From Bacteroidales bacterium (GTDB lineage Bacteria > Bacteroidota > Bacteroidia > Bacteroidales > Salinivirgaceae): 64,000 nucleotides of DNA. Within the stretch, counting starts at the first letter, position 1, and the number at the start of each line of letters is the position of its first letter. The stretch spans positions 1 to 64,000 of the forward strand of contig JAAYQU010000013.1 in assembly GCA_012519055.1 (NCBI GenBank). Reading direction: 5' to 3'. Below the pieces are notes generated by a model. It saw nothing but the letters and a program-made list of their open reading frames with translations. It searched no databases and was not told where the DNA came from. The translations under genes and the position numbers were made by a program. Positions 19,608-27,396 of this stretch are shown piece after piece.

Positions 19608-21467
19608 TTAATGTTTATATCTGATTGTTAATGAAATTTCGAAAGTGCGAGGTGGCGTAGGATAATGTCTTATCACTTGATATTCTGAGTTATATAAGTT
19701 TCTAACCACACCAGATATTTTAAATTGATACCTTTTGTAATCAAATGATTTGCCGCAACTTAAATTAGCTACATTGAAACCATCAAGCCATTTTGTATTT
19801 TGTTTGTTGGTGTATCTGAATGATGTTAAGCTGTGATTATAGTTTAAATAATAACCCCGATAATCAACGTGTAACCCTATTGCCCCCTTGTGATTTGGGA
19901 CATATATCATTTCGTATCCATCGCTAAAGCTTTTAACCCAAGTGTAATGCAACTGTACTCCACAATTAAATTTTTCACTTTTCCAAAACAGATAATCTGT
20001 CTCTGCCTCTATTCCGAAGCTTACAACACTGTCCTGGTTTTCCGGCTTCCAAATAGAGCCGTATGGTAGCCATACAATCATATCACTAATGTCATTATGA
20101 AATGCCGTTAATTGAGCAAAGTAACGCGACTTTCCAACGTTGTTTGAATATTTTACTGAAACTTCTTTGTTTATGGCATCTTCGGGAACTAGATCTCGAT
20201 TCCCCCAGCCTGTCCAGTACAAATCATTAAAAGCTGGCAACCTATAACTCCTTGAAACAAAAGACGAAATAGTTATTTTTTCACTTGCCGAGAAATCAAC
20301 ACCAATTGCAGGAGTAAAAGGAATAAATTTATTATTAACAACCTCTTGTCTAACAATCAAAGCTGCCTCAAGCCGTTTCCATAGATATTTAGCAATACCG
20401 TACATGGAATATCTGTTTCTTTTAGGATTTTTTTGCAAATCGGTACTTGTCATCCATTCTAATGACTGATTTATAGTGGCTTTCCATTCAATTAATGTGT
20501 TATCTTGCCCAATAGAAATTTCGTTTAATTGATTGTTTGTGAAGTGGTTAGAAACTATATCGCCTGCATATTTCATATATCCATAAAGATATGCCGAACG
20601 AAAATCGATGGAAAGATTATTGTTACACCACTCCCAGTGTAGCACTGAACGTATGTTGTCATCATTTGTATAATGTCCCTTTGGTGGGATAAGCATTGTA
20701 CCCGCGTCTTCGGTGTGCTGCTTTGTAAACCATAAATGCAAGTTGATTGCACTTTTTTTGCCTAATAAAAGCTTTGAACTACTAAGCGCTGATAACTTTG
20801 AAAAGGCACCGTTCGTGTTTGTATCAACCGGACTACCAAATCTCGAAGTATTTATATAGGTAAAGTCATTTTCAGCGGTTGAGTTTGATAATAGTAATCT
20901 TGTAGCAAACCTTTTACTCGACTTTTCTATCGATAAATATTGCCCATACTGTTTTAACATCCCTGCCGTTAACGTCAGCTCGGCTTTTATTTCATCATCA
21001 AGGGACAAATGATTGTCTATAAACACTGTTCCACCAATACTTCCACTGCCAACCTGTGCACCTGTTCCGCCTTTTACAAGCATTATTTTGTCGGCAGATG
21101 CGATTGGTAACGAGGCAAAATTAAATTGTCCGGTCTGAATATTCTGTATATTAATACCATTCCACACTACCCCCGTATGTGATGCTCCTGCTCCTCTCAC
21201 TGAAACCGTCGAAATTCCCGACAATCCATAAGACCTTATGTTTACAGAGGTATTTTGCTCCAATGCTTCGCCCAAATTCAAAACATAGCTACTTTTGCCT
21301 TTTATTGCAGTGAGATTTTGTGACGATTGTCCCGGTACTTTTGCATAATTGACTTTTTCAACAACAACTATCTCATTTAACAATAGTGTGTCGATAAAAT
21401 CTTGCGCCTGTACAACTATTTGCGAAAAAGTTGCTACAAAAAATAAACAGTATTTAAAAAATCTCAC
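19608..21467 (-). CDS. btuB: TonB-dependent vitamin B12 receptor
   Basis: Outer-membrane 22-strand barrel for TonB-driven cobalamin uptake. The start is GTG; the in-frame stop shortly upstream leaves no ATG option. A signal peptide ends VVQA with Gln as first mature residue. The plug domain is visible (LNEIVVVEKVNYAKVPGQSSQNLTAIKG, SVNIRSYGLSGISTVSVRGAGASHTGVVWNGINIQN, GGTGAQVGSGSIGGTVFI), followed by the barrel with YRLPAFNDLYWTGWGNRDLVPEDA and a terminal aromatic strand. 619 residues matches BtuB-size receptors without the SusC-type extra domain. The cobalamin riboswitch upstream and BtuG-like gene downstream identify the substrate. Confidence 0.92.
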   Translation of the reverse strand: MRFFKYCLFFVATFSQIVVQAQDFIDTLLLNEIVVVEKVNYAKVPGQSSQNLTAIKGKSSYVLNLGEALEQNTSVNIRSYGLSGISTVSVRGAGASHTGVVWNGINIQNIQTGQFNFASLPIASADKIMLVKGGTGAQVGSGSIGGTVFIDNHLSLDDEIKAELTLTAGMLKQYGQYLSIEKSSKRFATRLLLSNSTAENDFTYINTSRFGSPVDTNTNGAFSKLSALSSSKLLLGKKSAINLHLWFTKQHTEDAGTMLIPPKGHYTNDDNIRSVLHWEWCNNNLSIDFRSAYLYGYMKYAGDIVSNHFTNNQLNEISIGQDNTLIEWKATINQSLEWMTSTDLQKNPKRNRYSMYGIAKYLWKRLEAALIVRQEVVNNKFIPFTPAIGVDFSASEKITISSFVSRSYRLPAFNDLYWTGWGNRDLVPEDAINKEVSVKYSNNVGKSRYFAQLTAFHNDISDMIVWLPYGSIWKPENQDSVVSFGIEAETDYLFWKSEKFNCGVQLHYTWVKSFSDGYEMIYVPNHKGAIGLHVDYRGYYLNYNHSLTSFRYTNKQNTKWLDGFNVANLSCGKSFDYKRYQFKISGVVRNLYNSEYQVIRHYPTPPRTFEISLTIRYKH

Positions 21468-21603
21468 TATTACAAATGGTTTAAAATTAAACTCTTAAAA
21501 CATTTGTAACCAACGAAATGCGTTTTGGGAAATTGTTTTTCTGTATTATGCAGAGACCTCTGACCCATTTTACGCTTTTATCCCGAAAGCTACAACTATG
21601 TTT

Positions 21604-21781
21604 TCAACAGGCAGGTCTTCTGACTTACTCTAATTTCGGATGCCTTCCCATTTCGTTAAAAAACAGTGGCGGAGAGTTTCCGAAATCTAAAAAAGAGCTT
21701 ACAGCAGCGGGAACTGTCCGGGATTTGCACCCGATTCCCTTTTAAGAGTGTTTTCCGAATAAGGAAAACGTCTCACCTGTA
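21604..21781 (-). ncRNA. Cobalamin riboswitch (AdoCbl aptamer) in btuB leader
   Basis: Read on the minus strand, the leader has ACAGGTGAG at the 5' end, the conserved GGGTGCAAATCCC (21732-21720), GCGGGAACTG core, the B12-box segment GCCACTG (21670-21664) and the closing GAAGACCTGCCTGT. The ACAGG near 21778 pairs with CCTGT near 21606 to close P1. About 137 bases then separate the aptamer from the btuB GTG and contain a CAGAG/CTCTG inverted repeat at 21551-21562 that may belong to the expression platform. B12 binding would be expected to reduce btuB-btuG expression. Confidence 0.95.
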
Positions 21782-21787
21782 GTCCGA

Positions 21788-21795
21788 CAAAGTTA
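21788..21795 (-). promoter_or_regulatory. btuB promoter -7 box
   Basis: TAACTTTG on the minus strand, exact TAnnTTTG match. Predicted start near 21781 coincides with the 5' end of the riboswitch aptamer. Confidence 0.6.
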
Positions 21796-24116: not shown

Positions 24117-25538
24117 ATGTATAAAGTATTTTATAATCTTTGCAAAGAACACCTCAGTGAGGAGTTAGAAAAAGTTGAAAAAATGCCACAAGGTGGCTCC
24201 GAAAGGCAATATTTTAGGTTGTTTTTAAAAAACGACAAAACAATATTAGGTGTATTTAACCCTAATGTTCCAGAAAACGAGGCTTTTATTAAACTACAAG
24301 GTGTATTTCAAAAACAAAGTTTACCTGTACCGGTCATATTTGGAATTGATAAAAGTAAACAATACTATTTGTGTTCCGACAATGGAAAAAACACTTTGTT
24401 TGACTTAATAAAAAAAGATGAAGCCGGTAATTTAGAAAAGTCTGTTTACGAATATTTTGAACAATCTATCAAATACTTAGCACATTTTCAAACATCATTT
24501 ATTAAAGAACCCAATATCTTTGAATATTGTAATGTTCCTAAAGAGTTCGACAGACGTTCCATAATGTGGGATTTGAATTATTTTAAGTATAACTTTCTTA
24601 AAGTAAGGTCTGTTCCATTTAACGAAATCGCTTTGGAAGATGATTTTGAAAAGCTATCATCAAAAATTGCTTCTATACCAATGCGAGGATTTATGTACCG
24701 CGATTTTCAGTCAAGAAATATTATGATTGACAATGGAAAACCTGTATTTATTGATTTTCAGGGAGGTCGTCACGGTCCTTTGCAATATGACGTGGTAAGT
24801 ATTCTTTGGCAAGCGTTAGCCGAATTGTCAGAACAAGATAAAGAGAGTTTAATTAAATCGTACATCATTGAACTGCAAAAGACACTGCCAAAAAGTCAAG
24901 AGTACTTTTATCGCGATGTAGACGAAGTCATCCTATTAAGACTTCTACAAGTTCTTGGTGCCTACGGCTTCAGAGGTTTAATCGAACGCAGGTCTCATTT
25001 TATAAAAAGTCTCCCTTCGGGCATAAAACAGTTAGTTAAACATTGGGAAAATACCGATTTAGGCAAAAAATATCCTGAATTAAATAGTTGTATATACTTC
25101 ATAAACAAGCAACAAGAGCATCAACAACATAAAATTAAAACTACAGGTCTTACGGTAAATATTTGCAGCTTTTCATATGCTAACGGTAGCTATCCAATTG
25201 ATTTATCAGGACATGGTGGCGGATACGTTTTTGATTGCCGTGGGTTGCAAAATCCCGGAAGGATTGATGGCTACAAACATCTGACAGGGAAAGACAAAAA
25301 AGTGATTGACTATATGAGACTTTATGACGAAGTTGAGAATTTTATAAAAGCTGCTTATCAAATTATTGAAAGGCATGCTACGCTTTACGAAAGTCAAGGC
25401 TACCTATACCTTTTTGCTGCTTTTGGCTGTACAGGGGGACAACATCGCTCTGTATATTGTGCAGAAGAAGTTGCTAAACGCCTCGAATTTAATGGGTTTG
25501 ACGTTCACTTATGGCACAGAGATATTCCGAAAATCTAA
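24117..25538 (+). CDS. Amino-sugar kinase (AmgK-like) fused to a RapZ C-terminal domain
   Basis: Two-domain cytosolic protein. Residues 1-330 form an aminoglycoside-phosphotransferase-type kinase with a Gly-rich start (MPQGGSERQYFRL), catalytic loop YRDFQSRN (Asp196, Asn201) and metal-binding DFQGG (Asp213), as in AmgK, which phosphorylates MurNAc/GlcNAc at the anomeric position. Residues about 345-470 match the C-terminal domain of RapZ (SFSYANGSYP, GGGYVFDCRGLQNPG, LTGKD, GCTGGQHRS at 438-446), which in E. coli RapZ senses glucosamine-6-phosphate and binds RNA and partners. The RapZ ATPase domain is absent. The last 28 bases overlap the murU-like gene, so the products are coupled. The activity of the fusion is inferred. 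Confidence 0.88.
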   Translation: MYKVFYNLCKEHLSEELEKVEKMPQGGSERQYFRLFLKNDKTILGVFNPNVPENEAFIKLQGVFQKQSLPVPVIFGIDKSKQYYLCSDNGKNTLFDLIKKDEAGNLEKSVYEYFEQSIKYLAHFQTSFIKEPNIFEYCNVPKEFDRRSIMWDLNYFKYNFLKVRSVPFNEIALEDDFEKLSSKIASIPMRGFMYRDFQSRNIMIDNGKPVFIDFQGGRHGPLQYDVVSILWQALAELSEQDKESLIKSYIIELQKTLPKSQEYFYRDVDEVILLRLLQVLGAYGFRGLIERRSHFIKSLPSGIKQLVKHWENTDLGKKYPELNSCIYFINKQQEHQQHKIKTTGLTVNICSFSYANGSYPIDLSGHGGGYVFDCRGLQNPGRIDGYKHLTGKDKKVIDYMRLYDEVENFIKAAYQIIERHATLYESQGYLYLFAAFGCTGGQHRSVYCAEEVAKRLEFNGFDVHLWHRDIPKI

Positions 25539-26272: not shown

Positions 26273-26304
26273 TAGTAGAGACGGAGCATGCTCCGTCTCT
26301 ACTA
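26273..26304. repeat. 32-base perfect palindrome of the GTAGAGACG...CGTCTCTAC type
   Basis: Perfect palindrome centred between 26288 and 26289 on GCATGC, with outer TAGTAGAG/CTCTACTA. It lies between the convergent murU-like and pfkA genes and its last three bases supply the pfkA stop codon (plus CTA at 26302-26304). I recall GTAGAGACG-type palindromes scattered in cyanobacterial and other genomes. It would form a strong hairpin in transcripts from both sides but has no U-run. Confidence 0.85.
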
Positions 26305-27396
26305 CACACCAAAGGATATTCCAACTCCTTTTGCAGCGTTGACAAGATAATGATATTTTTGTACAGTATTATATGTTGAAATCGCTTCAGTCAACGGAAC
26401 TGAAATAATATCGGGATGTCTGTATGCAACCATATGTCCATACTTTTCTTCCAAAACCATTTCAAAAGCTTTAACACCATACTGAGTAGCCAAAACTCTA
26501 TCGTAGGCAATGGGTATGCCCCCACGTTGCAAGTGACCCAAAACAGTCTCTCTTATATCGTGATTACATCCTGCACTAATCAATTGATGCCGTAAAGCTA
26601 CCGCTACTCCTCCATATCTTGCATTTTTAAATCCTGTTACACCATCTTCCTGAATGGTAGCATGCCCTTCTTTGGCCATAGCACCTTCTGCAATTACGAC
26701 TATTGCAAATCCTCTATCGCGCCTAAATCTGCTGTTAATTTTTTCAGTTACAATATTTATATCATAAGGTATCTCTGGAATTAAACACAAATCGGCACCA
26801 CCAGCCACTGCTGCATGTAGAGCTATCCAGCCAGCATCACGTCCCATTACTTCAACTATAAAAACCCTATTGTGACTGGCAGCTGTTGTAACAAGCTTAT
26901 CTACAGCTTCGGTTGCAATTTGTACTGCAGTTTGGAAACCGAAAGTAGCATCAGTAGCCGAAAGGTCGTTGTCAATAGTTTTGGGTACCCCGATAATATT
27001 AAGACCCTTTTCATATAGAGCTTGAGATATACGCTGTGAACCGTCTCCTCCGATATTGATAACTGCATCAACACCAAGAAACTGAAGCTTCCTAATTAAC
27101 TCATCACTACGATCGACTGTTGAGGTTGTGCCATCTTTATTTTTAATAGGCCACGCAAAAGGACCTCCTTTATTAGTAGTTTCGATGATTGTCCCTCCTT
27201 GAATATGAATACCTGCAACATTCTCTTCAGTAAGAATTTTTATTTCGGTGGGTTCCCACAAAACTCCATTAAAGGCTTGTATTGAACCTATTATTTCCCA
27301 ATCACGCTCTTGTGCAGCACGTTTTACTATAGCACGAATAACTGCGTTCAAACCAGGACAATCTCCACCTCCTGTTAACACCAATGCTCTTTTCAT
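26302..27396 (-). CDS. pfkA: 6-phosphofructokinase, predicted ATP-dependent
   Basis: Phosphorylates fructose-6-phosphate in glycolysis. Motifs: GGGDCPGLNAVIR at the phosphoryl-donor site, GGDGS (116-120), PKTIDND (138-144, catalytic Asp142), MGRDAGWIA and the C-terminal LGHLQRGG. The donor-determining positions are mixed: Gly119 (E. coli Gly104) is of the ATP type, whereas Lys139 (E. coli Gly124) is of the pyrophosphate type. Enzymes with Gly/Lys, such as those of trypanosomatids and some actinomycetes, use ATP, so ATP is the better guess. 364 residues is longer than E. coli PfkA (320) and fits this subgroup. Its stop codon lies in a palindromic repeat. Confidence 0.93.
   Translation of the reverse strand: MKRALVLTGGGDCPGLNAVIRAIVKRAAQERDWEIIGSIQAFNGVLWEPTEIKILTEENVAGIHIQGGTIIETTNKGGPFAWPIKNKDGTTSTVDRSDELIRKLQFLGVDAVINIGGDGSQRISQALYEKGLNIIGVPKTIDNDLSATDATFGFQTAVQIATEAVDKLVTTAASHNRVFIVEVMGRDAGWIALHAAVAGGADLCLIPEIPYDINIVTEKINSRFRRDRGFAIVVIAEGAMAKEGHATIQEDGVTGFKNARYGGVAVALRHQLISAGCNHDIRETVLGHLQRGGIPIAYDRVLATQYGVKAFEMVLEEKYGHMVAYRHPDIISVPLTEAISTYNTVQKYHYLVNAAKGVGISFGV

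Follow-up and report, generated by a model that had tools for sequence, protein, structure and literature searches.

What does the C-terminal domain of RapZ (RapZ_C) do when the ATPase domain of that protein is missing and the domain is joined to a sugar kinase? This question is raised by a single gene in a stretch of 64,000 nucleotides of Bacteroidales DNA, referred to below as the window (Table 1). A sequence-only reading of this stretch had described the gene as a one-frame fusion of an AmgK-like kinase with RapZ_C that lacks the RapZ ATPase domain, and this architecture held up in every part. In the Pfam analysis of the fusion protein, the APH domain (PF01636) was matched at residues 22-238 with 46.2 bits against a cut-off of 23.2. 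Residues 345-470 matched PF22740, the RapZ C-terminal domain, with 106.9 bits against a cut-off of 27. The motifs YRDFQSRN, DFQGG and GCTGGQHRS that had been pointed out are all present in the protein. The ATPase domain PF03668 was found neither among the Pfam matches of the 473-residue protein nor, by profile search, in the genome from which the window derives, and a canonical RapZ identity was therefore rejected. The earlier reading had made no mention of the MurU-like gene, which overlaps the fusion gene at its 3' end. On the upstream side, the frame of a 650-residue TPR-repeat protein ends 14 bases before the fusion gene.

Table 1. Positions in the window of the fusion gene, its parts and the gene that overlaps its end.
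Feature	Positions	Strand	Remarks
Kinase and RapZ C-terminal domain fusion gene	24117..25538	+	open frame, 473 aa
AmgK-like kinase part, residues 1-340 (core about 1-330)	24117..25136	+	APH match 22-238
Inter-domain linker, residues 337-343	25125..25145	+	pLDDT <50 in model
RapZ C-terminal domain, residues 345-470	25149..25526	+	Pfam PF22740
Phosphate-binding loop GCTGGQHRSV, residues 437-446	25425..25454	+	reads also as C-X5-R-S
MurU-like nucleotidyltransferase, 247 aa	25511..26254	+	28-base overlap with fusion gene

The fusion is neither a product of chance nor an assembly artefact, because it was verified at 27 of the 30 loci fetched from a genome sample and because 79 of a further 80 loci, related ones taken from named genomes, have kinase and RapZ_C in one frame. 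The sample consisted of 296 genomes drawn from the phylum Bacteroidota, which were searched with the Pfam RapZ_C model. The domain was found in 36 of them, namely fused to the kinase in 27, as a separate gene beside the kinase in seven and unlinked to it in two; the matching frames measured 478-524 residues in 27 cases and 134-155 residues in nine. RapZ_C adjoins the kinase as a gene of its own, in the same order, in seven genomes, G031 and six of family f5, and likewise at locus L085. The two unlinked RapZ_C-only genes, from genomes G180 and G271, lie at L122:5935-6336 and L123:5983-6393 (both on the minus strand), and the kinase is encoded elsewhere in the same genome. The 80 related loci are the best of at least 585 stretches encoding a relative, with fusion status checked for part of these stretches, that were obtained by scanning named species genomes with two RapZ_C peptide patterns, [NH]GGG[FY]VFD and GCTGGQHR. 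They comprise 78 kinase-RapZ_C fusions, one pair of adjacent separate genes (L085) and one triple fusion from a Bacteroidaceae MAG, in which kinase, RapZ_C and MurU-like nucleotidyltransferase are contained in a single frame of 773 codons (L109:5944-8262, plus strand). The titles of these best 80 name Bacteroidales, Chitinophagales, Sphingobacteriales, Ignavibacteriales, Elusimicrobia, Calditrichia, Delongbacteria and Acidobacteriaceae.

Among the 80 loci the MurU-like gene is located directly next to the fusion gene in 59, elsewhere in the locus in three, past a contig edge in two and within the same frame in one, and a look at the locus level did not reveal it nearby in the remaining 15. It was also not seen beside the unlinked kinases at the kinase loci of G180 and G271. 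No other cluster of neighbours occurred in more than nine of the 80 loci. The kinase, RapZ_C and the MurU-like protein are the parts of a conserved three-part module of Bacteroidota and some other lineages.

By its sequence, the kinase part is a diverged relative of AmgK. AmgK was the best family for the kinase of the window, and of 28 kinase domains scanned all 28 were matched by the AmgK model and 27 by a second AmgK model, as compared to four at most for any other family. The score of the window's kinase (71.9-73.2 bits) is below the curated NCBIfam cut-off for AmgK of 550. It should be noted that this cut-off appears to be narrow, since proteins from Acinetobacter (246.5 bits) and Legionella (263.1 bits) that are encoded next to MurU-like genes miss it as well. 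R195, D196, N201 and D213 are invariant in 107 fused relatives, and we take this set to represent the catalytic Asp, the Asn and the metal-binding Asp of APH kinases. The kinase is 24-25% identical to its relatives from Acinetobacter, Legionella and Neisseria. A tree of 42 rows was calculated, of which we use the groups named here only, since its outgroup branches are very long and many of its forks are open. In this tree, the f18 kinases, which occur without RapZ_C, cluster with proteobacterial AmgK-like proteins (support 96/86). The RapZ_C-associated kinases are placed outside this group, with many of their internal forks unresolved. The split kinases of family f5 are grouped with a fused relative (98/93), and that of L014 with the fused L013 (97/91); separate genes for kinase and RapZ_C therefore look like secondary splits of the fusion.

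For the neighbouring nucleotidyltransferase of the window, MurU was the best curated family (96.7 bits, below the cut-off of 250). The solved relatives that ranked best for it were 4y7t and 8hhd, the latter of which is named MurU and the former of which is presumably a MurU structure too. The MurU model matched 22 of 22 scanned nucleotidyltransferases, with the lowest E-value among the families listed. For the f18 neighbour scanned, MurU (3e-41) is in a near tie with a mannose-1-phosphate guanylyltransferase model (4e-40). An APH-fold kinase gene followed by a MurU-type gene, in genomes without MurQ, is the arrangement that the module has in common with the AmgK-MurU pathway of Pseudomonas, which also includes MupP and AnmK. 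The module differs in that its kinase lies outside the group of the Acinetobacter, Legionella and Neisseria relatives in the tree and is joined to RapZ_C, a domain that is lacking from the Acinetobacter and Legionella relatives and from eight f18 kinases. At the eight f18 loci concerned (L147-L154), the AmgK-like kinase is followed in all eight cases by a longer MurU-like gene of 309-324 residues, and the respective genomes have no RapZ_C, no AnmK and no strong match to MurQ.

The distribution of these genes was examined in a panel of 80 genomes, composed of all 36 with RapZ_C and of 44 chosen from the 260 without it; all counts of co-occurrence given here are per genome and not per independent event. 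The kinase model was matched in all 36 RapZ_C genomes (E 2.3e-74 or better), including the two with unlinked genes, and in 11 of the 44 genomes without RapZ_C, all of which belong to f18 and gave weaker matches (E 3e-22 to 5e-46). MurQ is missing from 31 of the 80 genomes, i.e. from 20 module genomes and from the 11 f18 genomes without RapZ_C. All 31 have an AmgK-like kinase, as would be expected if they recycle MurNAc by the AmgK-MurU route. Together with the model matches and the adjacent MurU-like gene, this distribution bears out the earlier naming of the kinase as AmgK-like. The genome of the window contains AnmK, and a profile search of it revealed no MurQ. The module is also present in 16 of the 49 MurQ-positive genomes, so that 16 of the 36 module genomes hold MurQ. 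Among genomes with AnmK, the module was found in 13 of 13 without MurQ versus 13 of 45 with MurQ (Fisher p 3e-6, a value that is no true probability since the genomes are related). AnmK itself was rejected as a partner of the module because the 80 genomes showed no association, with AnmK in 26 of 36 genomes with the module and in 32 of 44 without it. Ten of the 36 module genomes lack AnmK, and seven of these ten lack MurQ too. In 11 genomes behind chosen loci among the best 80 of at least 585, which mostly represent other lineages, AnmK was found in ten (in two of them as fragments only) and MurQ in seven, which indicates that both recycling routes often coexist in those lineages.

In its fold, the RapZ_C domain of the fusion resembles that of E. 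coli RapZ. Its predicted model (pLDDT 91.9) fits the C-terminal domain of the E. coli protein (5o5s) at Z 19 and 1.6-1.7 A, with 38-39% identity. The next matches after RapZ were phosphofructokinases at Z 6-7, which is no better than the Z of about 6 obtained for methyltransferases that are unrelated. A comparison of 117 RapZ_C domains of the module with seven canonical RapZ proteins showed that F181, D182, R184, N188, P189, G200, G246, C247, T248, G249, G250, H252, R253, S254 and H276 do not vary in any of the 117, although this invariance is partly built in for the stretches of the GGG-VFD and GCTGG patterns, through which most of the 117 were found. H190 lies outside both patterns, and the 36 genomes that were found with the Pfam model give the same picture of conservation. 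The fusion shares with RapZ of E. coli and YvcJ the fold, the GCTGG-HRS loop, D182, R184, H276 and the dimer residues, but differs from them by the lack of the ATPase domain and of a basic tail, by an insertion before VFD and by the change of H190 to Gly. In the sample drawn by genome, RapZ_C is more constrained than the kinase part, with 25 invariant positions out of 132 (30 domains) versus 41 out of 340 (28 domains). The corresponding counts for all 107 fused proteins, 21 of 126 for RapZ_C and 24 of 340 for the kinase, are biased because most of these loci were found by RapZ_C peptide patterns. An invariant core as dense as that of RapZ_C is typical of a site that binds a ligand tightly or of a catalytic centre.

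Excerpts from work on E. coli report that glucosamine-6-phosphate binds to the C-terminal domain of RapZ (PMC7073468), that the loop of this domain binds sulfate or malonate in a pocket of defined residues (PMC5737377), and that H190A, G249W, R253A, C247A and C247S each inactivate the protein (PMC9841335). The sequence-only reading had suggested that the fusion senses amino-sugar supply, perhaps with allosteric control of the kinase, and the glucosamine-6-phosphate pocket on which this idea depends was recovered in part. Of the malonate/sulfate pocket residues H190, T248, G249, H252 and R253, the last four are kept in all 117 module domains; the position of H190 is occupied by Gly in all 117, compared with His in five and Tyr in two of the seven canonical RapZ proteins. 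With one exception among the 117, the residue that follows this Gly is basic (Arg or Lys). The ligand of RapZ_C has therefore probably changed to one other than plain glucosamine-6-phosphate.

The explanation that we favour, with somewhat less than even confidence, is that the fusion is a MurNAc-recycling kinase of the AmgK type that is tuned by a dimerising, phosphosugar-sensing RapZ_C. The kinase would act on the anomeric position and convert MurNAc to MurNAc-1-phosphate (and perhaps GlcNAc to GlcNAc-1-phosphate as well), the MurU-like enzyme would convert MurNAc-1-phosphate to UDP-MurNAc, and the wall sugar would thereby be salvaged without MurQ. The protein would dimerise via the RapZ dimer surface of RapZ_C, which would hold one of the phosphosugars of this pathway in the GCTGG-HRS loop and adjust the activity of the kinase to the supply of this compound. 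The ligand would probably be a bulkier or acidic relative of glucosamine-6-phosphate, such as MurNAc-6-phosphate, which would fit the change of H190 to Gly and the basic residue that follows. In favour of this explanation are the uniform matches to the AmgK and MurU models, the adjacency of the MurU-like gene up to its inclusion in the triple fusion, the occurrence of the kinase in every RapZ_C genome and every MurQ-less genome of the panel, the retained RapZ fold and the conservation of the dimer residues. It is weakened by the universal loss of H190, by the low score of the kinase relative to the AmgK cut-off, by the presence of MurQ in a good part of the module genomes, also in the other lineages, and by the 15 loci with no MurU-like gene nearby. 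Allosteric tuning of the kinase by RapZ_C is proposed by analogy, as the full-length predicted model has a pTM of 0.69 and a linker (residues 337-343) of low confidence.

Alternatively, RapZ_C could be a dimerisation or scaffold piece only, which would hold the kinase, and perhaps MurU, in place for substrate channelling and would have no sensing role. We consider this unlikely, even though excerpts from PMC5737377 state that dimerisation of the E. coli domain requires F181 and D182, both of which are kept in all 117 module domains, and even though the occurrence of the three parts in fused, split and triple-fused form would suit a scaffold. Conservation extends beyond the dimer surface to the whole phosphate loop, and the stand-alone, unlinked RapZ_C of G180 and G271 is hard to reconcile with a covalent scaffold.

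The loop of RapZ_C can also be read as C-X5-R-[ST], which we take to be the signature of PTP-like phosphatases. The main rival of the favoured explanation, which likewise seems improbable to us, is that RapZ_C is a cysteine-loop sugar-phosphate phosphatase that removes the 6-phosphate of MurNAc-6-phosphate in place of MupP, a phosphatase of the HAD type. In that case the fusion would catalyse two consecutive steps, from MurNAc-6-phosphate via MurNAc to MurNAc-1-phosphate, and the triple fusion three. Indeed, none of the 117 module domains and none of the seven canonical RapZ proteins has lost the Cys, the Arg or the Ser of this loop; in one of two RapZ_C copies from Streptomyces plasmids the Ser is replaced by Ala. 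No PTP fold was present among the listed matches of the fold search with the RapZ_C model. From the changes at C247, including the inactive C247S, the authors of the E. coli study proposed a catalytic thiol and a 'specialised catalytic function', and they ascribed density in the pocket of a crystal with glucosamine-6-phosphate to what is likely a 'chemically transformed product' (PMC9841335, in excerpt). The binding of sulfate or malonate by the loop would also be in keeping with a phosphatase. Furthermore, all 13 AnmK-positive, MurQ-negative genomes of the 80 have the module, and the window's genome, which belongs to this class, has no PGP_bact match at E 1e-15. However, it does contain three HAD_2 proteins of unknown substrate, whose best families are other HAD-type families. 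In addition, 11 of the 13 genomes hold a PGP_bact-like HAD protein at E 1e-15, in all cases under the cut-off (the exceptions being G000 and G277), and since this may be a phosphatase of the required kind the alternative loses weight. MupP was probed via HAD_2 in the window's own genome and via PGP_bact, a model of the Gph type that matched in 67 of the 80 genomes at E 1e-15 and in none over the cut-off. This test is weak, given that MupP, a HAD phosphatase, and Gph share only 29% identity (PMC5371407, in excerpt). As the only role of RapZ_C, a phosphatase is further disfavoured by the seven module genomes without AnmK and MurQ, which have no obvious source of MurNAc-6-phosphate. If the phosphatase reading were true, it would explain the 'chemically transformed' ligand of E. 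coli RapZ, which would then be a repurposed enzyme.

Rather doubtful is a third alternative, in which the kinase and its neighbour serve a different pair of substrates, for example choline or a heptose, and RapZ_C belongs to that pathway. APH kinases are diverse, and in a fold search with the kinase, which placed APH folds on top, the closest solved structures include corramycin kinase, choline kinase and LicA. Moreover, the nucleotidyltransferases match other sugar-1-phosphate families too: more than 12 other nucleotidyltransferase models cover all 22 MurU-like proteins too, though with poorer matches than MurU. Nevertheless, the best family is AmgK for the kinase part of the window's fusion and MurU for its neighbour, both match every member scanned, and the distribution of the AmgK-like kinase against that of MurQ speaks for MurNAc. 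Finally, the idea that RapZ_C retains RNA binding, which the earlier reading had brought in from E. coli and which would couple the kinase to post-transcriptional control, is very unlikely and was rejected as the main reading: K170, which contacts RNA in the E. coli protein, has a Lys or Arg counterpart in 98 of 106 fused domains and R184 is kept in all, but in the protein of the window this counterpart is Ala, R238 is replaced by an aromatic residue in 117 of 117, the basic-tail positions K270 and K281-K283 are not kept (though they vary among the seven RapZ proteins too), the RNA-binding part of RapZ is described as confined to Enterobacteriaceae (PMC7073468, in excerpt), and no match to GlmY or GlmZ was found within the 64-kb window.

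The favoured reading, i.e. a recycling kinase under the control of RapZ_C, would place the module beside the MurNAc salvage system of Tannerella forsythia, which comprises AmgK and MurU and represents the same phylum and pathway. A member of the fusion family may already have been described in what is probably the key paper on this system (Hottmann et al. 2021). This paper is cited in excerpts of PMC13046382 for the AmgK-MurU pathway in T. forsythia, and the citing source states that MurNAc recycling by AmgK and MurU has so far been observed in few species only. In T. forsythia, AmgK and MurU are presented as the anabolic branch (PMC7670621, in excerpt). Term counts showed no mention of RapZ in PMC7670621 or PMC5790795, and, as judged from titles and abstract beginnings, no paper on a kinase-RapZ_C fusion was among the open-access papers listed by literature searches. 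The module makes the phosphatase step and the control of AmgK-MurU recycling testable outside Pseudomonadota. Moreover, the retention of RapZ_C in an amino-sugar pathway without the ATPase and RNA-binding parts points to metabolite binding, or catalysis, as the original function of the domain, to which RNA regulation would have been added later.

The fusions of Bacteroides finegoldii and Parabacteroides distasonis, known from two annotated records, bear the product name 'RNase adapter RapZ', which is misleading. PF03668 was over the cut-off in none of the 80 panel genomes, with one weak match in G130. Six of the 11 genomes from other loci of interest, two from Elusimicrobia and four from Acidobacteria, contain a frame of RapZ size (294-352 residues) in addition to the fusion, so that the two proteins probably have separate roles there. 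Small RapZ_C-only genes that are also named RNase adapter RapZ are found on Streptomyces plasmids (L164:2495-2881 and L165:2486-2881) among mostly hypothetical neighbours, and 26 Streptomyces plasmid records match E. coli RapZ.

Within the window, an ORF of 364 residues that is convergent with the module (26302-27396, minus strand) looks by eye like a 6-phosphofructokinase; its position beside a domain that resembles a phosphofructokinase subdomain is probably a coincidence. A cobalamin riboswitch (Rfam RF00174, 98 bits) is located at 21593-21795 on the minus strand, just upstream of an ORF of 619 residues (19608-21467, minus strand) that looks, again by eye, like a BtuB-type TonB receptor.
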